Source: Ceratodon purpureus (taxonomy: Eukaryota; Streptophyta; Bryopsida; Pseudoditrichales; Ditrichaceae). From it: DNA of 64,000 bases. Position numbers and translations under genes: made by a program. Positions 7,757 through 34,068 of this stretch are shown here, one piece after another (the first letter of the stretch is position 1; each line of letters starts with the position of its first letter). The notes beneath the pieces were generated by a model. That model saw only the letters and a program-made list of their open reading frames with translations, did not search any database and had not been told where the DNA came from. The DNA lies in assembly GCA_014871385.1 (NCBI GenBank), contig CM026422.1:25218987-25282986 (forward strand), in the 5' to 3' direction.

Positions 7757-7828
7757 TCCGTTGTAGTCTAGATGGTTAGGATACTCGGCTCTCACCCGAG
7801 CGACCCGGGTTCGAGTCCCGGCAACGGA
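7757..7828 (+). tRNA. tRNA-Glu (CTC)
   Basis: This is a 72-nt cloverleaf with a 7-bp acceptor stem (TCCGTTG/CAACGGA), anticodon stem CTCGG/CCGAG, loop CTCTCAC with anticodon CTC at 7791-7793, and T-arm CCGGG-TTCGAGT-CCCGG. There is no intron and no encoded CCA. The A-box region (TAGTCTAGATGG) and B-box (GGTTCGAGTCC) are intact. It is the only unbroken copy of three in the window; the other two, at about 22.45 and 33.8-34.07 kb, are interrupted by LINE sequence at the same base. Confidence 0.95.
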
Positions 7829-8089
7829 AGCTCCCCAGTTTGCAGACTACCTTTCGGAAAACCTTTTGACATCCAAAACTCGAAAGAGCGAAAGAGCGAC
7901 AGGACTCACTCCCGCATTTCTGATCAATGTTTTTGTTACAAGAATACCCAAATAGACATGTAGGTATGATGTATGAATGTGAGTTAAAGAAGAACTTGGG
8001 CCCCTTCGTATGAGAACTCAAATAATCACCAACGTATGTGGCCTATATTTCTGCTTCACTCTCAATGGAATTCTAGTCGGCCGGATTTG

Positions 8090-21857: not shown

Positions 21858-22513
21858 TAAACAAGGCATTCTCACCTCCGGCTTTCCGGGCACCACACCT
21901 GTGAATTTACCAATTGGCAATGGTGGCACAAATACAGTTCTATGGCTTGCAATGCCTTGAGGGAGATGAATTGCCATAGATTTTCTTGAGGTTATGTATG
22001 ATGAAGTTTTAGATTTGTTTTTAGATGCACAAGAGGATGCTTGGAGGTTGGTGTTCATAGAAGATGGTGCTCCCAGTCATACTGGAGAGAGAATCAGAGT
22101 ATTGGGAAACTTCAAATCCGGCCGACTAGAATTCCATTGAGAGTGAAGCAGAAATATAGGCCACATACGTTGGTGATTATTTGAGTTCTCATACGAAGGG
22201 GCCCAAGTTCTTCTTCAACTCACATTCATACATCATACCTACATGTCTATTTGGGTATTCTTGTAACAAAAACATTGATCAGAAATGCGGGAGTGAGTCC
22301 TGTCGCTCTTTCGCTCTTTCGAGTTTTGGTCTTACAAACACAAGGATGTCAAAAGGTTTTCCAAAAGGTAATTCTTGTAACAAAAACATTGATCAGAAAT
22401 GCGGGATGTCAAAAGGTTTTCCGAAAGGTAGTCTGCAAACTCGGGAGCTTCCGTTGCCGGGACTCGAACCCGGGTCGCTCGGGTGAGAGCCGAGTATCCT
22501 AACCATCTAGACT
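21858..22513 (-). repeat. tRNA-Glu/Tc1-like block, copy 2 (truncated)
   Basis: In minus orientation this matches the part of copies 1 and 3 that begins in the tRNA-Glu gene and ends within the transposase relic. It has an internal tandem duplication near 22320-22440. Its tRNA gene has lost the 5' end because the LINE joins at 22513/22514. On the plus strand of this copy, DAQEDAWRLVFIEDGAPSHT is the best preserved Tc1/mariner-like segment in the window. Confidence 0.8.
22450..22513 (-). pseudogene. tRNA-Glu (CTC) fragment cut by the LINE 3' end
   Basis: The minus strand reads GTCTAGATGGTTAGGATACT... through to CCGGCAACGGA, identical to the intact gene at 7757-7828 apart from the missing first eight or nine bases (TCCGTTGTA). 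Directly upstream on the minus strand is the LINE 3' end, GGGATTTTCA. The A-box remnant, anticodon loop and B-box are intact, but the acceptor stem is destroyed. Confidence 0.92.
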
Positions 22514-23170
22514 GAAAATCCCTCTTCGGGTTAAAGTGAAAAGAAAGTAACAACCGGGAAAAAACCCGGGGACAGGCCCAGAGGGCCGTCACGCCCCCCC
22601 CAGAGGGGAGCCAGGCCGAAGCCGACCTAAGACCACGGAACCAAACTATCAAAGCAGACAGTCGAAAGCGGCACCCACGCAGGGGTGAAAGCCAAGTCGA
22701 GCACGAAGCAGAGACGAGGCAAGGACCAGGCACTGAGCCAAGGACCGAGAAAAGAACCTAACCGGAGAGCACACAGCAAACCAGGCCAGGAGACGGGAAC
22801 GAAGCACAGAGCAACGAGTCCCTGAACATACCAAAAACAACAGGAATCTAGCTCTGAGCAAGGATCCTAACAAGCAGCAAGAGCCGCCTACCTACAGCAC
22901 TGAGCTACAGGAAGTCACAGCCCCCCAAGACCCGCGCAGGGGAGAGGGGGCAACAACAACTCTAGAGACATCAAGGACAATTCTAGAGGCCTAACAACTG
23001 CACCACTAAAACCCCCGGAGGGGAAGGGCGGTTGAGGCTGAAGGTCTTCACTGGGACGTCGCCAAACCTGAAGCGTTGAGCAACAGGGAAATCTCCAAAA
23101 AATTCCTCGGTCAAGCACCGAGCAATACCGAGCTGTTACCGAGGGTAGCTGCTACCTCCATCAAAACTAA

Positions 23171-26100
23171 TCAATGTTGCACCCAGAACGCGGCGTGGGC
23201 AGCAAGATCCGCGGACGACTGCAGGTCCATGGGAAGACTGAGGTCGTCGTCAGAGTCATCATCCTCCTGCTCTGCTGAGATGGAGGGATCCGACTCTTGG
23301 GAGAGGTCTGCTTGCATCCTTGCAATGATGTCCATGAGGACGGCATCAGCCTCGGACACCGCCCTCAAGTGTGCCTGAGAAACAGAGCTGTCGACAGTGG
23401 ACTCCTCAGGGGAAGCCAATGGAATCTGAAAGGAGTTGAGTCTGTTCGCAAACTCTCTCGTTAAGAAGAGAGGATGAGGAACAGGATTCCAAGTAGGTGA
23501 GTTAACTCCCGTGCAGAAGAGTCCTCCCTGGTTCCAGATTGACATGAAGAGTTGGACCATCGCCGAATGTTTTTCGGGGGATCTCTTTCTCTTGAAGCGC
23601 TGCAGCTCCCGCCATGCAGCCATGCCAATCTGAACAGTAGTCTTCCACGTGCGGAATAGGACTATACCAATATGAAACTGTCCATTCCGTAAATCATACT
23701 CTACCTTTTGACACCATATCATGTACAAAAGGGTGCTGCGAATAATATCCCAAGGGGTCCTCGCAGAAATGGAACAGGCTGTGCGGCTAGCATCCCAGAG
23801 CGCATCTGGGTCCGGTTGCCTTCCCCTAGTCGTGTTAGGGGGGTCCATTTCGCCGTGGAGTGCAATCTCCCAATTTTGTAATCCCGGCTGAAGTCCGGCC
23901 AGAGCCCGAATAGTTCTTAATCGTTCCCATGCAGGTGCAACCGCTGGGCATAGAAAGAACGCATGCTCTGAGTTCTCCAGCTGGGAGCCAGAGCACAGAT
24001 TGCAGATGCCAGAGTGGCCTATCCGCTGTCTCCATTCACCAATCGGAAGGCCTCCGGATATGGTGAGCCAAAGCATCCCTGAGATGCGTCTCGGTAGCCA
24101 CTGGTGCCAGAGTCGGGAGAAATACTTCTTCCTCTGAGCCGGTGGGTAGCCTCTAGCATCCATCTCTTTGTCCCAGAGGGACTGACGAGATTGCTCTCGG
24201 ATTATGATGCGATAACCTCTCTTGGTGCTATAATCGAAGAAATGAGTCGACTGCATAACACCCTGTTTCTTCCACGCCCATTCCTTGGGGTCAAAGGGGA
24301 GATCCTTAATGACCCCTGATCGGAATGTCCAAAGAGAATTGCCTTGGATTAGTCCCACTGGGGGATTAAACCCTCTGACCTTACCGTCGCCTTCCTTCAT
24401 GATTACCCGAGCCTCCTCAAACAAGTCAGAGGGGAAAATTGTAACTGGAAGGTCTTCCCGAGTAAGGAGCTCCGAGTTATCTACTCGGCTGTAGGCATCT
24501 GCAACCCAACCATCTCCTGATGGGGCTTTGAGTATGAGAAACTGTCCTTGAGAATCAACAACCCAGTCACCAACCTTAAGCTGATGTGGTTTGGAGAGAT
24601 CCCACGGGCATTCTCGGATAATGTTGTTCCTAAGCGGAACTACATGCCAGGATCTTGTTCGCTGCTTGAGGTGTTCAACCCCAATAAAGCGGTTTGAACG
24701 TTCAATCCAAATATCCTTGATCTGATTGAAGCCTTTGACGCTCCAATTGCGGTAAAAGGAGTTCCTTTCGCTGCCGAAAGGTCTCGTTGGTCCCGCGAGC
24801 AGCTCGGTGTTAAGAAACAAGGGCTGACGGAGCATCTCAGCCCTTGTTGAGGCCTTATGCTTAGAGACTCCCGGCATTATGGAGACCCAGGCGGTCCATA
24901 TAGCCATCCAAAGTCTGGAGCCGTCTGGCTTCACTTTAGGCGCCGAGCAAAGCCAGAGGGCCGACTGGGCCCAATCCCCATCCTGACGGAATTGAAGCCT
25001 CGAGACTCTGTGTCGAATAAGAGATTTCCAGGGTTCAGGTCCCGGAGACATGGCCCTTGGTATCATCTTCGCCAATAAGGCTCTGGACTGTGCATATGGA
25101 TCAAAAATTTTGATTCCACCCTTCACGGTAGGGATAACAGCAGTGTCCCAAGCAACTTTTGCTCTCGGGTTACCTTCCGATGAGCCACTCCATATAAAGT
25201 TGCGGATGATTGCTCTGACTTTCATGAAGACTGAATTGTCAACATGAGAGCATGAAGCTAAATACCAAATACTGGCTAAGACTATTTGGTTGGAGACCAA
25301 CACTCGGGCTGGTAGAGAGAGTCTCCGAGTCGCATAGGGTGCCATCTTGCTACGGATGTTGTGCAGGATGGCGGCATCTATGTCCTTCTGGGGCAGGTCC
25401 TTCCCGAAGGGGAAACCCAAATATTTGGTTACTTCTCCCTCACTTAACCAAACCAAGCCCCTGTCAGCTCCCCATTCCCAATCTCTAACCTCATCTGAAG
25501 CCCAAATCGCCCGGGACTTGTCCCAGTTCAACTTGGCCCCGGAAGCTCCACAGAAAAGTTCTAGGACGAGGAAGACTCGTTCCATGTTCGCTTTGGTGCC
25601 TCTCAAATAGAGAGAGGTATCATCTGCAAAACATTGGACTCTGATCACCGTACCATCAGGGAGTCTGAACCCCTCGATGCCGTATACGGGATCGTTGATC
25701 ATGTAGCATAAGACGTCCGAAATGAAGAGGTAGAGGTAGGGTGCAATCGGGCACCCTTGCCTAACCGACCTCTCGAGCTTAAACTTGGGTGTCTTCTTGC
25801 CGTTGACTAGAATGGAAGTGGTAGAGTCACGGTAAAGAGCTTGTGTCCACTTTACCCACTCCTCTGAGAACCCCATCTTCCTCATCGTTGCCGAGAGAAA
25901 TGTCCAATTGACGCGGTCATACGCTTTTTCAAAATCCAGAAAAAGGATGACCAGGGGTTGCTTACTTTCTTTCGCGTAGTGTATGGACTCCTGTGCTAGT
26001 AGGACGTTATCGAGGATAAACCGTCCCTTGACGAATGCCGTTTGTGTCGGTAGAATCAGCCCTGGGAGGAGTGGTTGCAACCGATTGGCAAGCGCCTTAG

Positions 26101-27112
26101 CATGCAGCTTATATACCGCAGTCAAGACTGAAATTGGCCGGAAGTTCTTTGCCAGGGTCATCGAGCCACCCTTAGGGATGAGGCTGGTGACACCATCATT
26201 CAGATCCGGATGCAGATATCCTCGCTGGAAGGTTTCATTGAGGAGTGCCGTAAGATCCTCTCCAATAACTGGCCATAATTCCTGTAGCAGCTCCGTGGGG
26301 ATGGAGTCTGGCCCCGGAGCTTTATGCTTAGGAAGGTCGTTCAGGGCCTCTTCAACTTCAGTGAGCGTGAAGTCTTTAGTGAGGATGTCATTCATAGACT
26401 CCGTCACGATGGTGGGCACGCTCCGCAAACACTGCTCCCTGCCGGCAGTGTTGCTTTCCACCGTCTCATCTCTGGTGTAGAGACTGCTGTAGTAGCTCCG
26501 GAGGTATTTAGAGATCTCCTCTTCTGTCTTGAGAGATCTACCACCGTCCATTAGCTCTGATATCGTTGTCTTCTTCCTCCTATCTCGATAGAATTCAAAG
26601 AATTCCTTCGAGCACCGATCTCCAACAGTAATCCACTTTGCAGCGAGTTCATTCTTCGTTTTGTCCAATTTGGCCAACCTAAGCTCCTCCAGTTGAGCTT
26701 GAGCTGAATTCACCCGCTCCCATGCTTCCAAATCTGCCCAATCCTGTTGAATGTCAGCCTCAGCAGCTTCGATCTCTTTGAATTGGCTCTTATATAACTC
26801 TTTTGCCTCCGCCTTCTTGTCCTGAGTGATAAAATTACTGAGTCTCCGAATGTGCTCTAGAGCAGTAACCACCTTCTCGCTCTTCAGCAAATCCTCAGGC
26901 CAGCGCATGGCCTCCTTCCAAGCGTCTGAGAAGCGGTCTTGAGCTTCAATGTTGTGGATCAGTCCCGTATTGAAGGTCTGGTGTCTATGCCGCTTAACTC
27001 GGGAAAACGGGATCTGAAGGAAGGCAGCGGAGTGGTCCGAAACATGTCTCATGTTCGGCCAGATTCCATGCTTTCCTCCCCGTTCCTTAATTTCTGGGGA
27101 GACGTAAAATCT
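23171..27112 (-). CDS. LINE ORF2, reverse-transcriptase part (3' half of split ORF2)
   Basis: This stretch is open for 1313 codons plus stop. It begins RFYVSPEIKE, the normal continuation of the endonuclease end (LDRFYVS). RT motifs appear in order: KNFRPISVLTAVYKLHAK, QTAFVKGRFILDNVLLAQE, LFLDFEKAYDRVNW, RQGCPIAPYLYLF, the catalytic FADDT and YLGFPFG. Near the C-terminus SRLWHQWLPRRISGMLW and a CNLC...EHAFFLC knuckle match zf-RVT. No RNase H motif was seen. The upstream 227 codons lie at 31524-32204; their frame is the same once the insertion and one target duplication are discounted, giving a 1540-codon ORF2 with no stop. This suggests a young element. Confidence 0.92.
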   Translation of the reverse strand, partial: RFYVSPEIKERGGKHGIWPNMRHVSDHSAAFLQIPFSRVKRHRHQTFNTGLIHNIEAQDRFSDAWKEAMRWPEDLLKSEKVVTALEHIRRLSNFITQDKKAEAKELYKSQFKEIEAAEADIQQDWADLEAWERVNSAQAQLEELRLAKLDKTKNELAAKWITVGDRCSKEFFEFYRDRRKKTTISELMDGGRSLKTEEEISKYLRSYYSSLYTRDETVESNTAGREQCLRSVPTIVTESMNDILTKDFTLTEVEEALNDLPKHKAPGPDSIPTELLQELWPVIGEDLTALLNETFQRGYLHPDLNDGVTSLIPKGGSMTLAKNFRPISVLTAVYKLHAKALANRLQPLLPGLILPTQTAFVKGRFILDNVLLAQESIHYAKESKQPLVILFLDFEKAYDRVNWTFLSATMRKMGFSEEWVKWTQALYRDSTTSILVNGKKTPKFKLERSVRQGCPIAPYLYLFISDVLCYMINDPVYGIEGFRLPDGTVIRVQCFADDTSLYLRGTKANMERVFLVLELFCGASGAKLNWDKSRAIWASDEVRDWEWGADRGLVWLSEGEVTKYLGFPFGKDLPQKDIDAAILHNIRSKMAPYATRRLSLPARVLVSNQIVLASIWYLASCSHVDNSVFMKVRAIIRNFIWSGSSEGNPRAKVAWDTAVIPTVKGGIKIFDPYAQSRALLAKMIPRAMSPGPEPWKSLIRHRVSRLQFRQDGDWAQSALWLCSAPKVKPDGSRLWMAIWTAWVSIMPGVSKHKASTRAEMLRQPLFLNTELLAGPTRPFGSERNSFYRNWSVKGFNQIKDIWIERSNRFIGVEHLKQRTRSWHVVPLRNNIIRECPWDLSKPHQLKVGDWVVDSQGQFLILKAPSGDGWVADAYSRVDNSELLTREDLPVTIFPSDLFEEARVIMKEGDGKVRGFNPPVGLIQGNSLWTFRSGVIKDLPFDPKEWAWKKQGVMQSTHFFDYSTKRGYRIIIREQSRQSLWDKEMDARGYPPAQRKKYFSRLWHQWLPRRISGMLWLTISGGLPIGEWRQRIGHSGICNLCSGSQLENSEHAFFLCPAVAPAWERLRTIRALAGLQPGLQNWEIALHGEMDPPNTTRGRQPDPDALWDASRTACSISARTPWDIIRSTLLYMIWCQKVEYDLRNGQFHIGIVLFRTWKTTVQIGMAAWRELQRFKRKRSPEKHSAMVQLFMSIWNQGGLFCTGVNSPTWNPVPHPLFLTREFANRLNSFQIPLASPEESTVDSSVSQAHLRAVSEADAVLMDIIARMQADLSQESDPSISAEQEDDDSDDDLSLPMDLQSSADLAAHAAFWVQH

Positions 27113-27239
27113 ATCAAGCCCATGGTTGTCATAATAGACCGACCGTCCGTTAGTCCGTTAGTCCGTCATGGTGACAAGACACACCCCCGTGTCCGTCACA
27201 TAAGGAAATTGACCGGTTGACTCACGGTAAGGTTAAAAC

Positions 27240-28150
27240 GAATTTACCTAGCGCTGACTTTTGCGCGCGCTCGCGCGCGCGCCCGAGAGCAGACGGGCGC
27301 GAGCATACAGGCAGGTGCAAAAAAAAAAAAAAAAAAAAAAAATTTTTTTTTTTTTTTTTTTCGCACTCGCCCGTATGTTCGCGCCCGTCCGCACTCGCGC
27401 GCGCGCAGACGGGCGCGAACGTATCAGCGAACACGCACACAGAAACCAGCCAAAGTTCTAAAAAAAAAAAAAAAATTTTTTTTTTTTTTTTTTTTCGCAC
27501 TCGCCTGTATGTTCGCGCCCATCCGCACTCGCGCGCGCGCAGACGGGCGCGAACGTATCAGCGAACGTGCACTCACAAACCAGCCAAAGTTTTTGAAAAA
27601 AAAAAAAAAAAAAAAAAAAATTGTTTTTTTTTTTTTCGCACTCGCCCGTACGTTCGCGCCCGTCCGCACTCGCGCGCGCGCAGACGGGCGCGATCATATT
27701 AGCGAACGCGCACACAGAAACCAACCAAAGTTCTGAAAAAAAAAAAAAAATTTTTTTTTTTTTTTCGCACTCGCCCGTACGTTCGCGCCCGTACGTTCGC
27801 GCCCGTCCGCACTCGCGCGCGCGCAGACGGGCGCGAACGTATCAGCGAACGCGCACTCACAAACCAGCCAAAGTTCTGAAAAAAAAATTTTTTTTTTTTT
27901 TTTTTTTTTTTTTCGCACTCGCCCGTACGTTCGCGCCCAACCGCACTCGCGCGCGCGCAGACGGGCGCGAACGTATCAGCGAACGCGCACTCACAAACCA
28001 GCCAAAGTTCTGAAAAAAAAAAAAAAAATTTTTTTTTTTTTTTTTTTTTCGCACTCGTCCGTACGTTCGCGCCCAACCGCACTCGCGCGCGCGCAGACGG
28101 GCGCGAACGTATCAGCGAACGCGCACTCACAAACCAGCCAAAGTTCTGAA

Positions 28151-28183
<33 letters not shown>

Positions 28184-28470
28184 CGCACTCGCCCGTACGT
28201 TCGCGCCCGTCCGCACTCGCGCGCGCGCAGACGGGCGCGAACGTATCAGCGAACGCGCACTCACAAACCAGCCAAAGTTCTGAAAAAAAAAAAAAAAAAT
28301 TTTTCTTTTTTTTTCGCACTCGCCCGTACGTTCGCGCCCGTCCGCACTCGCGCGCGCGCAGACGGGCGCGAACGTATCAGCGAACACGCACACAGAAACC
28401 AGCCAAAGTTCTCAAATTTTTTTTTTCGCACTCGCCCGTATGCTCGCGCCCGTCTGCACTCGCCCGTCCG
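27240..28470. repeat. Array of about 135-bp hairpin units with A/T runs (array A)
   Basis: Roughly eight units start near 27361, 27495, 27637, 27765, 27913, 28049, 28183 and 28314. Each holds CGCACTCGCCCGTACG, the arm ACGTTCGCGCCCGTC, a CGCGCGCGCG core, the facing arm GACGGGCGCGAACGT, a spacer (CAAACCAGCCAAAGTTCTG), then A(n) followed by T(n). Each unit therefore contains a perfect 15-bp GC hairpin and an A-T palindrome. All open frames here (lysine/phenylalanine runs, RARADGRERI) are artefacts of the repeat. Confidence 0.93.
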
Positions 28471-28559
28471 CTCTCGCCCGATGGCGTGCGCCGGACTCCC
28501 ACGAAGTTGTTGTTCTTGTCATTTTGGTGCTACCCCCACCATTGAGTGCGAGCATTCGG

Positions 28560-29130
28560 GCGCTCGCACATGGGCGCGAGCAATCGCGCGCGCGCTGACG
28601 GGCGCAAGCGTATCAGCGAACGCGCACATAGAAACCAGCCAAAGTTCTGAAAAAAAAAAAAAAATTTTTTTTTTTTTTTTTTTTTTTTCGCACTCGCCCG
28701 TACGTTCGCGCCCGTCTGTACTCGCGCGCGCGCAGACGGGCGCGAACGTATCAGCGAATGCGCACTCAGAAACCAGCCAAAGTTCTGAAAAAAAAAAAAA
28801 AAAAAAATTTGTTTTTTTTTTCGCACTCGCCCGTCCGTTCGCGCCCGTCCGCACTCGCGCGCGCGCAGACGGGCGCGAACGTATCAGCGAACGCGCACTC
28901 ACAAACCAGCCAAAGTTCTGAAAAAAAAAAAAAAAAATTTTTCTTTTTTTTTCGCACCCGCCCGTACGTTCGCGCCCGTCCGCACTCGCGCGCGCAGATG
29001 GGCGCGATCGTATTAGCGAACGCGCACACAGAAACCAGCCAAAGTTCTGAATTTTTTTTTTTTTTTCGCACTCGCCCGTATGCTCGCGCCCGTCTGCACT
29101 CGCCCGTCCGCTCTCGCCCGATGGCGTGCG
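28560..29130. repeat. Hairpin-unit array B, same family as array A
   Basis: Four more units of the same design (starts near 28689, 28821, 28953, 29065) follow a short unique spacer containing CATTTTGGTGCTAC. Each has the GACGGGCGCG hairpin, CCAGCCAAAGTTCTG and A(n)T(n). The edge segment GATGGCGTGCGCCGGACT occurs at both ends (near 28481 and 29120), so the block looks duplicated. Confidence 0.9.
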
Positions 29131-29559
29131 CCGGACTTCCACCAAGTTCTTGATCATTTCATTTTGGTGCTACTTCCTCCTTTGCACTCGCCGGTATGCT
29201 CGCGCCCGAGTATTGGCGCCCGTCCGCACTCGCCTGATAGCTTGCATCGGACTTCCAGCAAGAAGGTGTTCATTGCAATTTTATGCACAAATAATTGTTG
29301 CTAGACCAAGGAGCTCAATTGCTCAGTACGCGATGTGATGGAGATCGATGAGTGATGAGAATATTTTTGTAATATGATATTAGAATTAAAGTAGTAGCAA
29401 AAGGCATAGATAATTAGATTAGTAGAAGATTTTGGAGTTAGTTTAATTTTGTTTAAACTAGTACATTTTGTGTACATTTCCACTATCTTCGCGTTGATTA
29501 AATCATAATCTATTGTAACGTCAATTCATTGTTGACTATGTCGTTCATCACACTTGATG

Positions 29560-30540
29560 GCTTTTTATCCATGACTTTTTTTTATATTTCTCCCATTCTA
29601 TCCCTTTATTTGTTGATTTTTCTATTCTTCTTCCATTCTATCTTCTCGTTTTCCTTTTCTTCTATATCCAGTGGATGATGTATTTATTTATTTTATTAGC
29701 CTTCCATTGGTCTTACATTCTATCTTTTATTTTTATATATTAAAATTTCCAATTGTCTTCCATTCTATCATCTCATCCCTTTAACTTCATTATAATTCCA
29801 TTCTATCTTCTTCTTTTCCTTTTCTTCCATTCTTAGCCTATCATGTATTTATTTATTTATTTATTCTTCCATTGGTTTCACATTCTATCTTTTATTTTTA
29901 TATATTAAAATTTCCAATTGTCTTCCATTCTATCATCTCATCCCTTTAACTTCATTATAATTCCATTCTATCTTCTTCTTTTCCTTTTCTTCCATTTCTA
30001 GTGGATGATGTATTTATTTATTTATTTATTCTTCCATTAGTCGCCCATGCCATCTTTTATTTTTATTTATTTTTCCAATTGTCTTCTATTCTATCATCTT
30101 GTTCTTTTTAAGTTCATTATTATTCCGTTTTATCTTCTTATTTTCTTTTTCTTCCATTTCTAGTGGATGATGTGTTTATTTATTTATTTATTTATTCTTC
30201 GATTAATCGCCCATTCAATCTTTTATTTTTATATATTTTTCCAATTGTCTTGTATTCTATCATCTTGTTATTTTTAACTTCATTATTATTCCATTCTATC
30301 TTCTTGTTTTCTTTTTCTTCCATTCTTAGTCTATCATGTATTTATTTATTTGTTTATTCTTCCATTAGTCACACATTCCATCTTTTATTTTTATTTATTT
30401 TTCTAATTGTCTTGTATTCTATCATTTTGTTATTTTGAAGTTCATTACTATTCCATTCTATCTTCTTGTTTTCTTTTTCTTCCATTCTTAGTCTATCATG
30501 TATTTATTTTATCATTCCAAGTCTATGATGTATTTTTTTT
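29560..30540 (+). repeat. AT-rich tandem satellite, period about 165 bp
   Basis: Blocks reading TTCCATTCTATCTTCTT recur near 29789, 29956, 30121, 30288 and 30452. Each is followed by TTCTTCCATT, a TTTA run (ATTTATTTATTTATT) and CTATCATCT. Spacings are 164-167 bases. The frames are serine/phenylalanine/isoleucine-rich and not genes. It lies inside the hAT-like element. Confidence 0.85.
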
Positions 30541-30759
30541 CCTATATTTGTTATGTAAACTTATTATATGTGCCAATTGAATGAAACATGGTAAATAAAT
30601 TTAAGAATAACATGAAATATAAGTTATTTACATATTTAATTAATGAATGCAATCATGAACAAAATATAAAACTATATTTAACAAGAATAACTTTAATAGT
30701 ACAAAAATCAGGATTCAAATCATACAAGAACATATCTACATGAGTTTTGGGAGTTCGGT

Positions 30760-30995
30760 TTCATTTCATTTTTGTGCTAGTTTTTTCTACGCACACCGAT
30801 ACGCACGCACCCAACCTCCACCAAGAAGTTGTTCATTTCATTTTGGTGCTTTATTTTTTCCTATGTACATGCCTACATGTACATGCCCAAAGGATGAACT
30901 ATCACCAAAATGAAATGAACAATTTCTTTGTGAAAGTCTCGCGCCTGAATGCTCGCGCCCGTAGGCACGCGCGCGAGCACTCTGGCGCGCGCACC

Positions 30996-31039
<44 letters not shown>

Positions 31040-31233
31040 TTTTTTTTTTTTTTTTTTTTGCGCGCGCCAGAGTGCTCGCGCGCATGCCTACGGGCGCGAG
31101 CATTCAGGCGCGAGCATGTGGGCGCGTGCACCAAAAAACCATTTTTTTTTTTTTATTTATTTTTTTTAAATTTTTTGCGCGCGCGCGCGCGCGTGCCTAC
31201 GGGCGCGAGCATTCAGGCGCGAGCACCAAAAAA

Positions 31234-31290
<57 letters not shown>

Positions 31291-31380
31291 TTTTTTTTTT
31301 TTTTTTTTGCGCGCGCGCCCGAGTGCTCGCGCGTGTGCCTACGGGCGCGAGCAAACGCGACGACGGGCGCCACCCATGGT
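30760..31380. repeat. Hairpin array C, second sequence family
   Basis: Units read GCTCGCGCCCGTAGGCACGCG, then long A and T runs, then the inverted partner (CGTGCCTACGGGCGCGAGCA). Long A(n)T(n) palindromes occur at about 31000-31060 and 31234-31308. It opens with an inverted pair of CATTTTGGTG segments at about 30839 and 30905. The architecture matches arrays A and B, but the arm sequence is different. Confidence 0.85.
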
Positions 31381-31523
31381 AAACAGTAGTAAACTGTGAG
31401 GACAGTAATTTTGCTCGCGGTCGGGAGCCCGTCCGATAACCGTCCGTCCGATAACCGTCCGTCACGTTCGTCACGTGACTACACGACAATTTTTTGGCCC
31501 GTCCGTCCATTATGACAACCATG

Positions 31524-32204
31524 ATCAAGCCGGGCCCAACAGGGGGTCGGCCTCTCTCTGTTCCAAGTGAAATGTTTGGAACCGAGGCGACAGTACTCAT
31601 CTTCGAGAAATGAATCCGTCAAGCCTAGAGAAAGAACAAGGTTAGCCCAAGCGGTCTGTTCCCTAGGACCCATGTTCTTAGCATCGAATCCTTGGCTTCT
31701 ATCGCTGCCAAGCTCCGTCATGTTGAAGTCTCCAGCGACCACCCACCCATGTACCTCGGGGAGGGAAAAGCGGTTGATCTGATTCCAAAATTGAGCTCTT
31801 AAGGTTGTAAAGTTAGGGCCATAGATATTCATAATCCCAATCCGCTGGCCATTGATGTCGAGAATCAGGTATTGGGCCCGTCCCTCTGAAATGACTCCAT
31901 AGTCAAGAACTCTCTCAGCTAGGCTCCTGGATATCGTGATTCCAGTTCCAGCCGAAAACCTGTCCGTCATTGCGTCGTACAGTGCGTTATTCCAAAAGCT
32001 TGCCCCTCCCTTGAATTGTAATTGGCTGGTGAGGTCCATACAAGACTCATGGTCCAGATGATGCTCCTGTAGCAGGATGATATCCGGCTGGGGCTCCGCT
32101 TTTCGAAAAAAGTCTCTGATCTCGGCTCTTTTCCGTATCCCTTGAATGCCTTTACCAAGGCTCCTGGTATTCAAGGTTGCCAGTGTAATCTGGTGTACAG
32201 TCAT
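31524..32204 (-). CDS. LINE ORF2, endonuclease part (5' half of split ORF2)
   Basis: These 227 codons begin MTVHQITLATLNTRSLG and contain LLQEHHLDHE, GRAQYLILDINGQRIGIMNIYGPN, WVVAGDFNMTE and KHFTWNRERP, the motif order of AP-like LINE endonucleases. The frame reads through ARLD and is then cut by the TIR element; apparent codons below 31524 belong to that element. The start codon overlaps the ORF1 stop as ATGA. With the part at 23171-27112 this makes one uninterrupted ORF2. Confidence 0.9.
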
Positions 32205-32359
32205 TCAGGGGTGAATGAAAGAGTACCCTGACTCTTGGTGGATGGCCCATCAAGGTCTTGATCAGAATCGCTGTCGTCCCCCAGGGAGGATTCTGGGCGG
32301 AAGGATTGCCTCTGTTTCTTCAGCTGAGGGCGTGAAGGAGAGGGATCATCATCTACCAT
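32201..32359 (-). CDS. LINE ORF1 C-terminal tail (5'-truncated)
   Basis: A 52-codon in-frame remnant (contains SSLGDDSDSDQDLDG, ends GTLSFTPE) stops at TGA, sharing ATGA with the start of ORF2. It is acidic and serine-rich. The gag-like body of ORF1 is absent because the LINE copy starts here. Whether the ATG at 32359 was ever a start codon is unknown; it is more likely an internal methionine. Confidence 0.6.
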   Translation of the reverse strand: MVDDDPSPSRPQLKKQRQSFRPESSLGDDSDSDQDLDGPSTKSQGTLSFTPE

Positions 32360-33089
32360 GATGAGTGGAGAGTCGGTTTCAAAGTCTATTCTTCATAAAA
32401 GTTAAGGTATTAAATGTTTGCTTGTCCTCTATGCTTCCGAGGATTGTTATAACTACTAGCTCCTCAATCTTCATGTACTCTAAGAGCTTGCTCCAGAGTA
32501 GATCATTAAATTCAATCTGATTCTACAACCTAGACACGGGTAATTGGAAGGTCTCCTCACATGGCAGAATAGGCGTTGTCCTCATGGGAAGCTTGAATAT
32601 ACAAGTTTATTTATTAAGCTGCTCAATTGACAAAATGGACTTGGCCACCTTCCCATCTTTTTTTTTTTAAGATAGTTGCACATCCTCTGGCTGTTGTAGA
32701 GCCTCATCTTCTGCATCACTTGGTGATATATCAATGAGGCTAACTATAGTGAGTGGCAATTGAACCCTCCCCTTCGTCTTCTTTGTCCTTGCAACATCAA
32801 ATGTCTTTGGTCTTTGGTTTTTGCTAGATGTTTGACAAAATCCAAAGATGTTGGCATATAGAAAGTAGACTTGGTCATCTCGACTTTCGGAAATTTTGCA
32901 CAACGTCGCTACTTTTATAATGCCCTACAACGGTCTAAAGTCTGATAAAGTCAATGCAGTCATTTGAAAAAGTATTATGAACAAGTGCATAATTTTATCA
33001 AAAAATTGCCCCAATCGCATCTACCGCCTCTACCAACACAACCCTCACGGTGCCCTCGTTTGATTCTCACCAGAGTGTGCGCAAAGTGA

Positions 33090-33650
33090 AGTGTGCAACA
33101 CATTGGAAAATCCAATTGTTAGCAACCGCTGCTTATGTTGCACCCTAAAAGATAGACCTCTATGGGCATCAATGGTGTTTGGCGCACACTTGCATGCATC
33201 CATATTGTATCCTCGGAATTGCACTGCAAATTCACTGCAATGTCTGTTCACTGCTTCAGCTATGAGGTTATCTCCACCACCTGTTACATAATGCACAATT
33301 CATTAAGCACATTTTTAACCCAAGCAACGCCTAAAGCTTAAAGCACAACAACAAAACAATGTAAACAAGGCATTCTCACCTCCGGCTTTCCGGGCACCAC
33401 ACCTGTGAATTTACCAATTGGCAATGGTGGCACAAATACAGTTCTATGGCTTGCAATGCCTTGAGGGAGATGAATTGCCATAGATTTTCTTGAGGTTGTG
33501 TATGATGAAGTTTTAGATTTGTTTTTAGATGCACAAGAGGATGCTTGGAGGTTGGTGTTCATAGAAGATGGTGCTCCCGGTCATATTGGAGAGAGAATCA
33601 GAGTATTGGGAAACTTCAAATCCGGCCGACTAGAATTCCATCGAGAGTGA
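33090..33650 (+). pseudogene. Decayed Tc1/mariner-like transposase (copy 3)
   Basis: In order on the plus strand: an HTH-like segment (ENPIVSNRCL...TLKDR..LWA, about 33103-33175), a degraded middle, then LVFIEDGAPGHIGERIRVLG (about 33550-33610), which resembles the second catalytic Asp of DDE_3 transposases. Stops and shifts separate the pieces. It has no intact ORF and lies beside the tRNA-Glu gene in all three blocks. Family assignment is from motif shape only. Confidence 0.45.
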
Positions 33651-33790
33651 AGCAGAAATATAGGCCACATACGTTGGTGATTATTTGAGTTCTCATACGA
33701 AGGGGCCCAAGTTCTTCTTTCGAGTTTTGGTCTTACAAACACAAGGATGTCAAAAGGTTTTCCAAAAGGTAGTCTGCAAACTCGGGAGCT

Positions 33791-34068
33791 TCCGTTGCCG
33801 GGACTCGAACCCGGGTCGCTCGGGTGAGAGCCGAGTATCCTAACCATCTAGACTTGAAAATCCCCACCGGGGTTAAAAGAAAATGAAAGTAACAAGACCA
33901 CCAGGGTCGGGGGCGGGAACCAACCAACAGGTCAGAACCCAACCGCAAAGCAACCAAAAGGTTGAAAACGTAAAAGTAAAAACGGACCAGAGAGGAGGAA
34001 ATCCTCCGAGGGGGAGCAAAGCTCGGGAGAGGTCAACATAAAGTCCTAACCATCTAGACTACAACGGA
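33791..34068 (-). pseudogene. tRNA-Glu (CTC) interrupted by a 189-bp LINE fragment
   Basis: The 5' part of the tRNA is at 34068-34044 and the rest at 33854-33791. Between them lies the LINE fragment 33855-34043. The 17-bp segment TCCTAACCATCTAGACT is present on both sides (33838-33854 and 34044-34060), a target-site duplication. Without the insert and one duplicate the sequence equals the intact gene. The duplicated bases are the D-arm/A-box region. Confidence 0.95.
33855..34043 (-). mobile_element. 5'-truncated LINE fragment (189 bp) in tRNA-Glu
   Basis: On the minus strand it ends GTTACTTTCATTTTC...AACCCCGGTGGGGATTTTCA, closely parallel to the 3' end of the large LINE (GTTACTTTCTTTTC...AACCCGAAGAGGGATTTTCA) but not identical. 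It is therefore a separate insertion of the same family. It has no coding capacity. The flanking 17-bp duplication marks target-primed insertion. Confidence 0.9.

Follow-up and report, generated by a model that had tools for sequence, protein, structure and literature searches.

In the moss Ceratodon purpureus, LINEs that carry the domains of plant L1 elements very probably use target-primed reverse transcription to enter tRNA genes at one fixed internal position. Two such copies lie in the window that we analysed, a stretch of 64,000 nt from contig CM026422.1, and both join tRNA-Glu(CTC) at nt 8/9, within 1 nt of each other, as a sequence-only reading of the window had claimed (Table 1). Copy A ends ...GGGATTTTC and copy B ...GGGATTTTCA, and each is followed by tRNA-Glu from A9 (AGTCTAGATGG). 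Since both run straight into A9, the 1-nt difference can be assigned to the LINE end, and on the junction sequences we read the two copies as having probably used the same target nick. They were also taken to be independent events, and this is borne out by their different 3′ ends and by their matches to different copies elsewhere in the genome. All genome counts given here refer to one genome of 362 Mb.

Copy B is flanked by a 17-bp target site duplication (TSD), AGTCTAGATGGTTAGGA, and is 98.4% identical to a copy inside a tRNA-Gln on another chromosome. The third tRNA-Glu of the window is, as proposed, an empty site: it is intact and paralogous to the copy B locus, with 98.9% identity over 1141 bp on the tRNA 3′ side (32360-33500) and, on the 5′ side, 92.7% over the 220 bp beside the insertion and 98.4% over the next 380 bp. 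Copy A extends over 22514-32355, of which the LINE sequence proper makes up ~5.4 kb because an unrelated insert interrupts the copy. It is 97.8-98.4% identical to a copy with different flanks that sits 450 kb away in the C2 tandem array of tRNA-Glu genes; compared with that array copy, copy A is 5′-truncated. Its 5′ side adjoins a duplicated segment starting at 32360, and in the window neither a TSD nor the tRNA 5′ half was found on that side.

Table 1. Positions of the two LINE copies, the tRNA-Glu sequences that they adjoin and the empty site (window coordinates).
Feature	Position	Strand	Remark
Intact tRNA-Glu(CTC), paralogous empty site of copy B	7757..7829	+	
tRNA-Glu(CTC), nt 9 to 3′ end, adjoining LINE copy A	22450..22513	-	
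LINE copy A, 3′ part: ORF2 RT, zf-RVT, 3′ UTR ending ...GGGATTTTC	22514..27120	-	97.8% to copy in C2 tRNA-Glu array
ORF2 frame, 1293 aa, with RVT_1 and zf-RVT	23171..27052	-	Pfam domain matches
Unrelated low-complexity insert within LINE copy A	27121..31524	.	flanking element positions 1212 / 1218, ~7-bp overlap
LINE copy A, 5′ part: APE endonuclease, end of ORF1	31525..32355	-	98.4% to C2 array copy
tRNA-Glu(CTC), nt 9 to 3′ end, beside copy B	33791..33854	-	
TSD, 3′ copy (tRNA-Glu nt 9-24, D arm)	33838..33854	-	
LINE copy B, 189-bp 3′ fragment ending ...GGGATTTTCA	33855..34043	-	
TSD, 5′ copy	34044..34060	-	
tRNA-Glu nt 1-8, cut off from rest of gene by LINE copy B	34061..34068	-	

Ten insertions with TSD were found, in tRNA-Glu, Gln, Asp, Lys and Pro, and joining the flanks restores a full tRNA in every one of them (10/10). 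Separate insertion events that hit one and the same base of a multicopy gene and leave a TSD place these elements among the target-specific non-LTR retrotransposons. LINE and tRNA have the same orientation, with the LINE 3′ end abutting nt 9 (nt 10 in Pro) and with the D arm, up to nt 24-26, as the duplicated target; from this junction and this duplication we infer that the antisense strand is nicked at nt 8/9 and the sense strand after nt 24-26. The TSD measures 17 bp in Glu against 16 bp in Asp and Gln, the Glu D loop is one base longer than theirs, and the end of the TSD falls at the homologous base. In these copies insertion is inside the gene at a fixed base, not outside it at a distance. 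The C2 tRNA-Glu array contains one interrupted unit of 675 bp, and the 20 uninterrupted unit intervals that surround this unit vary by at most one base; one tRNA-Asp holds two LINEs in tandem with three TSD copies, and several insertions are present in some tandem tRNA arrays. No TSD was found in two of seven relatives tested (L071 and L072), for L026/L057, or, within the 6.6 kb searched, in the Gly case, and one proposed for L033 was set aside as unreliable because its 5′ side is a tandem repeat.

A genome-wide survey of tRNA D-arm sites in six isotypes (Glu 54, Asp 53, Pro 79, Lys 83, Gln 26 and Ala 50; 345 in all) found a foreign base before the D arm in 32. Seventeen of these have a LINE RT match on the same strand, 2.67-3.12 kb upstream of the site, compared with none of the other 313 sites and with ~0.04 expected by chance; 11 of the 17 were already known from sequence and six are new. 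This count used 125 RT matches, and its main lists left out many tandem-array members. The Glu, Asp and C1-Pro array members and the paired Lys members were checked separately and none falls in the interval, and for the C12-Pro arrays there is no RT match within C12:6.0-6.99 Mb. For a few other Pro rows the decision was made by eye on the list of RT matches, and the separate Lys check took in the C56 and C74 Lys rows. Outside the array, 9 of 24 matching tRNA-Glu sites carry a foreign base. Two sites counted as unbroken, a tRNA-Asp (C3:16653194) and a tRNA-Pro (C11:5854314), have an RT match 5.2 and 5.4 kb upstream, respectively. We also note that an unchanged first base is still compatible with insertion by a LINE ending in that base.

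Fourteen relatives were hand-picked by RT similarity from the better-matching part of 125 RT matches, which were those scored out of 923 candidates seen at a first look. Ten of the 14 end in identifiable tRNAs and four, judged by eye, in tRNA-like sequence, and the Rfam tRNA model is entered exactly at position 9 in seven. The targets found include tRNA-Glu, Asp, Gln, Lys, Pro, Ala and Gly; close relatives differ in target isotype (Glu, Asp, Gln), and diverged lineages hit different tRNAs. The original proposal of a single family that targets tRNA-Glu at a single nucleotide holds as regards site-specific insertion inside the tRNA, and nt 8/9 is used in most junctions read, but the elements form many diverged lineages with several isotypes besides Glu, Pro is entered at nt 9/10, a distant group splits tRNA-Lys farther 3′ than nt 8/9, in five genes, and specificity is not absolute. 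Two Leu-like junctions, identified by eye, lie near nt 24/25. We think it likely that L1-type LINEs have radiated in mosses, with almost all lineages directed at one or a few tRNA isotypes, reading D-arm/A-box DNA at nt 8/9 or, in a second class of sites, closer to the anticodon arm, switching isotype by small recognition changes and living in tandem tRNA arrays. The element's own endonuclease, or another part of ORF2, would read the A-box/D-arm DNA, and the cut strand would serve as primer for copying the LINE RNA into cDNA from its 3′ end; isotype switches may follow from D-arm similarity, and multicopy targets, arrays above all, would limit harm to the host.

Tabulating LINE 3′ ends across the genome, a check suggested at the outset, bears out insertion into tRNA genes and also shows where it fails: 19 of 29 ends sampled by pattern search lie in no recognisable tRNA (two of the 19 are duplicates, L052 and L053 repeating L050 and L041). 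Sixteen of the 19 are of the type with a CCGGTGGGG-like end, which is also the source of copy B, and one subfamily has 14 of its 19 sampled sites outside tRNAs, mostly at AGTC. Insertions outside tRNAs have AGTC as their first four bases in 11 of the 19 rows, or in 10 of 17 once the duplicates are removed; two of these have a related flank in common. At one off-target site, L044, a 29-bp LINE tail lies at GTTGT^AGTATA, which has 11 nt in common with tRNA-Asp, in a 3-kb locus where no tRNA gene was called; its resemblance to tRNA-Asp argues for a reading of DNA.

These sites bear directly on the possibility that Pol III factors (TFIIIC/TFIIIB) tether the LINE to tRNA genes and that the exact position reflects steric access. 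In its favour, the identified targets are tRNA genes, whose A box the D arm overlaps, and a tethering of this kind has been proposed for Dictyostelium TRE elements, with TRE5-A described as targeted through host proteins (PMC3706591). Tethering is harder to reconcile with single-base precision inside the gene and with TSDs that stop at the homologous base in all three of Glu, Asp and Gln, as well as with the AGTC starts of the non-tRNA insertions and the tRNA-like DNA of L044, and we regard it as possible but unlikely. That one insertion was copied among tRNA loci by segmental duplication or gene conversion is highly improbable. The window does hold duplicated tRNA-Glu segments, ~99% alike, and such an origin had been named as what might undo the case; the Glu loci, however, differ in LINE type, length, 5′ truncation point and flanks, and the same position is used in other isotypes, and copying was rejected on these grounds. 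Equally hard to credit is that the LINE carries the tRNA as a built-in 3′ tail and does not target it, which would account for the recurrence of tRNA sequence beside LINE 3′ ends but is refuted for the 10 tested copies, where the missing tRNA 5′ part lies with the TSD at the element's other end and the joined flanks give the full tRNA, and is at odds with the several isotypes and the uninterrupted units beside the C2 copy.

The elements for which we favour target-primed insertion encode an ORF2 with APE endonuclease, RVT_1 and zf-RVT domains in Pfam scans. DUF4283 was detected in all three ORF1 frames scanned, just above the cut-off in two, and Pfam matched nothing in the 178-aa end of ORF1 from another copy. 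We take this combination to be the mark of plant L1. No endonuclease family other than APE matched in Pfam at E 0.001, the APE domain being present in place of a restriction-like endonuclease of NeSL/R2 type; the L082 endonuclease frame (205 aa scanned) fell below the Pfam cut-off. Against PDB, the RT matched an entry named RNA-directed DNA polymerase (E 3e-45), LINE-1 ORF2 protein (E 6e-45) and R2 (E 5e-21), and the endonuclease frame had no match at E 0.01.

To our knowledge, plant L1 elements are regarded as dispersed, and a poly(A) 3′ end is usual, not universal, in those of flowering plants. The moss LINEs share DUF4283 ORF1, APE endonuclease, RVT_1 and zf-RVT with plant L1-clade LINEs but differ from them in being site-specific in tRNA genes and in having no poly(A) tail at the junctions read here. 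They resemble Mutsu, Keno and Dewa, LINEs of the Tx1 clade and APE type, in being aimed at multicopy small-RNA genes. In zebrafish, Mutsu targets 5S, Keno U2 and Dewa a tRNA-Leu spacer, in contrast to the interior of the gene in the moss, and Dictyostelium TRE elements, also associated with tRNA genes, insert at a distance from the gene and not at a fixed internal base (PMC3706591). A review gives L1 as the main LINEs of flowering plants, tabulates (A)n 3′ ends in 224 of 233 L1 families and names Tx1 as the LINE that inserts target-specifically (PMC3747384). LINEs with target specificity are already known, planarian elements reported in tRNA-Glu among them: LIN25_SM (tRNA-Glu) and LIN15_SM (tRNA-Arg) are animal elements, shown among relatives of the NeSL clade, which has a restriction-like endonuclease, as opposed to APE in the moss LINEs (PMC4640811). 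Several lineages of Dada target tRNA nt 8-13, the A box, but these are DNA transposons with a transposase, not LINEs (PMC8869645).

A literature search in which subscription journals were thinly covered found no report of plant LINEs inside tRNA genes. If our reading is correct, these elements would be, so far as the literature searched shows, the first strictly target-specific group of plant L1 and would have the broadest tRNA target set of any LINE. Their related endonuclease/RT proteins, which differ in tRNA target, would form a natural series along which shifts in specificity could be followed one residue at a time. Target-primed insertion of such precision at tRNA genes is also of interest more widely. 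They also raise the question of how a haploid plant tolerates broken tRNA genes; tandem tRNA arrays may act as a buffer and refuge.

A conserved CCC...GGG hairpin at the LINE 3′ end, which seemed likely by eye, was rejected: single-sequence folding gave z of -1.05 and -0.14, and RNAalifold gave 3 pairs without covariation. The 3′-end motif is constant in the 29 sampled ends because the search pattern required it. A pattern joining the LINE end to a generic D arm had 21 matches, several of them not tRNA, against 2 for its control, and it misses Glu; a loose LINE/tRNA-Glu junction pattern had 18 matches genome-wide, of which 14 are not such junctions and four are, against 9 for the reversed control.

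Both LINE junctions with tRNA-Glu(CTC) in the window (G000:C2:25218987-25282986 in the host assembly) fall at the same base, as the sequence-only reading had proposed and as reading both sequences confirmed. A 189-bp LINE end at window positions 33855-34043 splits one of these genes and is bordered on both sides by the 17-bp duplication AGTCTAGATGGTTAGGA, which corresponds to the D arm (tRNA nt 9-24). The third tRNA-Glu copy, suggested to be the empty site, proved to be that of the 189-bp copy, because the sequence around this intact gene (7757-7829) is paralogous to the flanks of the insertion on either side. One flank is 98.9% identical over 1141 bp; the other is 92.7% identical over 220 bp and 98.4% over the 380 bp that follow. 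The longer LINE (22514-32355) joins the same tRNA base, is 5′-truncated, has no recognisable target-site duplication (TSD) and adjoins a duplicated segment. Another insert (27121-31524) breaks it up and consists of about 4.4 kb of A/T runs and GC-rich repeats. This insert has an overlap of about 7 bp of LINE sequence at its borders and inverted ends that look alike by eye; it may be a non-autonomous DNA transposon carrying internal tandem repeats.

Across the genome (362.5 Mb in 151 contigs, including one of 110.5 Mb), a loose pattern spanning the LINE 3′ end and its target gave 18 matches versus 9 for the reversed control, and four of the 18 are LINE/tRNA-Glu junctions: the two in the window, C2:24791021 and C4:13001193. 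The C2 copy, which is an unusually clean insertion, interrupts a single repeat in a tandem array whose 675-bp units each contain a tRNA-Glu. Around it, 20 uninterrupted unit intervals vary by 0-1 base. The C2 copy has the same 17-bp TSD as the 189-bp window copy, as does the 3.9-kb C4 copy. The 3′-end pattern TTAACCC..GGGATTTTCA was found at 29 places, versus 2 for its reversed control. Eight ends join tRNAs, of several isotypes (Glu 4, Asp 2 in tandem within one gene, Gly 1, Gln 1), two more adjoin a D-arm fragment (loci L026 and L029), and 19, two of them duplicates, lie outside any recognisable tRNA. Among these 19, 16 have a CCGGTGGGG-like end, from 21 of that type (14 of 19 of the type without duplicates), and three have a GAAGAG/GAAAAG-like end, from eight of that type. 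Because most non-tRNA ends are of the CCGGTGGGG type and 11 of the 19 flanks start with AGTC (as at tRNA nt 9-12), the tie of this type to tRNAs is only partial and its cut preference is retained. Copies of the CCGGTGGGG type that are 97-98% like the 189-bp copy occur both in a tRNA-Gln on C11 and, on C13, outside tRNAs.

A search independent of the 3′ end, using a 317-aa reverse transcriptase (RT) query, yielded at least 125 scored matches (923 first-look candidates) with 45-100% identity, many in open frames of 1500-1900 aa; two matches, C1:15237377 and C1:15201779, have open frames 6595 and 3072 aa long, well beyond the length of a LINE ORF2. From the 125, 14 copies of 58-82% identity, most with open frames, were picked by hand rather than at random, and 2 kb was fetched at the expected 3′ end of each. 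Identifiable tRNA genes hold the 3′ ends of 10 of these 14 (Asp 3, Lys 2, Pro 2, Glu, Gln, Ala), and 14 unrelated 3-kb control loci contain none; at seven of the 14 junctions the Rfam tRNA model is entered exactly at position 9. At the junctions of L073, L077, L078 and L080 no tRNA was called by ARAGORN or Rfam, and by eye their 3′ ends lie in tRNA-like sequence, Leu-like in two with the junction near nt 24/25. L073 also carries a complete U1 snRNA gene on the other strand (L073:933-1091), about 0.4 kb past the LINE 3′ end. On the 5′ side, fetched for seven of the 14, the tRNA 5′ half and TSD were present in five and were not found in L071 and L072. Sequence or coordinates, the latter covering Glu, Asp, Pro, Lys, Gln and Ala, place 24 of the 125 scored copies in tRNA genes: ten from the sample, those in the window and in the C2 array, a Gly copy whose RT was assigned by proximity (5.9 kb), six at the first site by coordinates and five at a second site. 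A further six are tRNA-like or half-supported, and L031 and L051, with RT assigned by proximity, end outside tRNAs.

D arms were listed by exact patterns, so that diverged genes were missed; sites numbered 54 for Glu, 53 for Asp, 79 for Pro, 83 for Lys, 26 for Gln and 50 for Ala, of which 10, 4, 3, 9, 2 and 4 have a foreign base before the D arm. A scored RT match (of the 125) lies 2.67-3.12 kb upstream on the same strand at 17 of 32 foreign sites versus 0 of 313 others, where chance would give about 0.04. Eleven of the 17, including nine of the 14 sampled copies, were already known from sequence, and thus only six are new. Of the 15 foreign sites with no scored RT match in that interval, some are copies known to be truncated or partial (window 33854, C4:13.00, C11:8.46).

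In tRNA-Lys, comparison of 83 D arms with 91 anticodon arms by position left 13 and 21 alone, respectively, and 70 paired. More distant LINEs appear to split tRNA-Lys between these arms, because in five cases (one on C4, two each on C5 and C8) an RT match of 50-51% identity lies between a lone D arm and a lone anticodon arm. The remaining lone arms may be sequence variants.

For ten insertions with a TSD (Glu 3, Gln 1, Asp 2, Lys 2, Pro 2), joining the flanks with one TSD copy gave a complete tRNA of the right isotype in 10/10 by ARAGORN, and either flank alone gave one in 0/10; for the C2 Glu copy, the result with the element's own 5′ flank is for the joined sequence only. TSDs measure 17 bp in Glu, 16 in Gln and Asp, 17 and 18 in Lys and 15 in Pro. 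The Glu D loop has one extra base, and the Glu TSD, one longer than those of Gln and Asp, has its end on the homologous base. One Pro copy has an additional partial D-arm repeat on its 5′ side. In L056 and L028 (C1:15243709-15247000 and upstream), tandem LINEs in one tRNA-Asp with three TSD copies, the TSD restores the target. At L069, where a LINE lies in tRNA-Asp, a very short LINE-like tail (~640-772) is seen by eye within the adjacent tRNA-Gly(GCC).

DUF4283 in ORF1 (3/3 scanned) and the APE endonuclease, RVT_1 and zf-RVT domains of ORF2 are, by domain content, apparent plant-L1 features; in comparison with solved structures, LINE-1 ORF2 scored best and R2 next. By RT identity, the Glu copy in the window resembles two Asp copies at 82% and 81% and a Gln copy at 79%, and a second Glu/Asp pair shares 80%, which shows that target isotype has changed among close relatives. 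As read from the TSDs, the antisense strand would be nicked at nt 8|9 and a second cut would follow nt 24-26; by the known LINE mechanism, cDNA synthesis would be primed at the LINE RNA 3′ end. The element's own protein probably reads the target DNA, given the base precision, AGTC at off-target sites and a 29-bp LINE tail at a site that shares 11 nt with tRNA-Asp and lies in a 3-kb locus where no tRNA gene was called.

In the portions of the literature consulted, planarian LIN25_SM and LIN15_SM, which target tRNA-Glu and tRNA-Arg, share tRNA-gene targeting with the moss LINEs but differ in being NeSL-related (PMC4640811). Zebrafish Dewa is directed to the spacer of tRNA-Leu, TRE elements integrate some way from tRNA genes (PMC3706591), and Dada DNA transposons use nt 8-13 of tRNA genes (PMC8869645). 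Literature searches for LINEs in tRNA genes showed no plant case.

Several tandem tRNA arrays contain LINEs, and many tRNA sites occur in inverted pairs ~1-13 kb apart (for example C3:13005202/13013791, C12:7672528/7679309 and C2:9011915/9015093).

Tandem tRNA gene arrays in the host genome, by contig
tRNA	Location (Mb)	Spacing (bp)
Glu	C2:24.775-24.801	675
Pro	C1:21.907-21.920	1391
Pro	C12:6.247-6.265	1300
Lys	C5:18.19-18.23	856
Lys	C8:2.95-3.01	1725
Lys	C8:1.42-1.45	971
Asp	C11:11.008-11.055	1676
Ala	C4:12.015-12.046	1519
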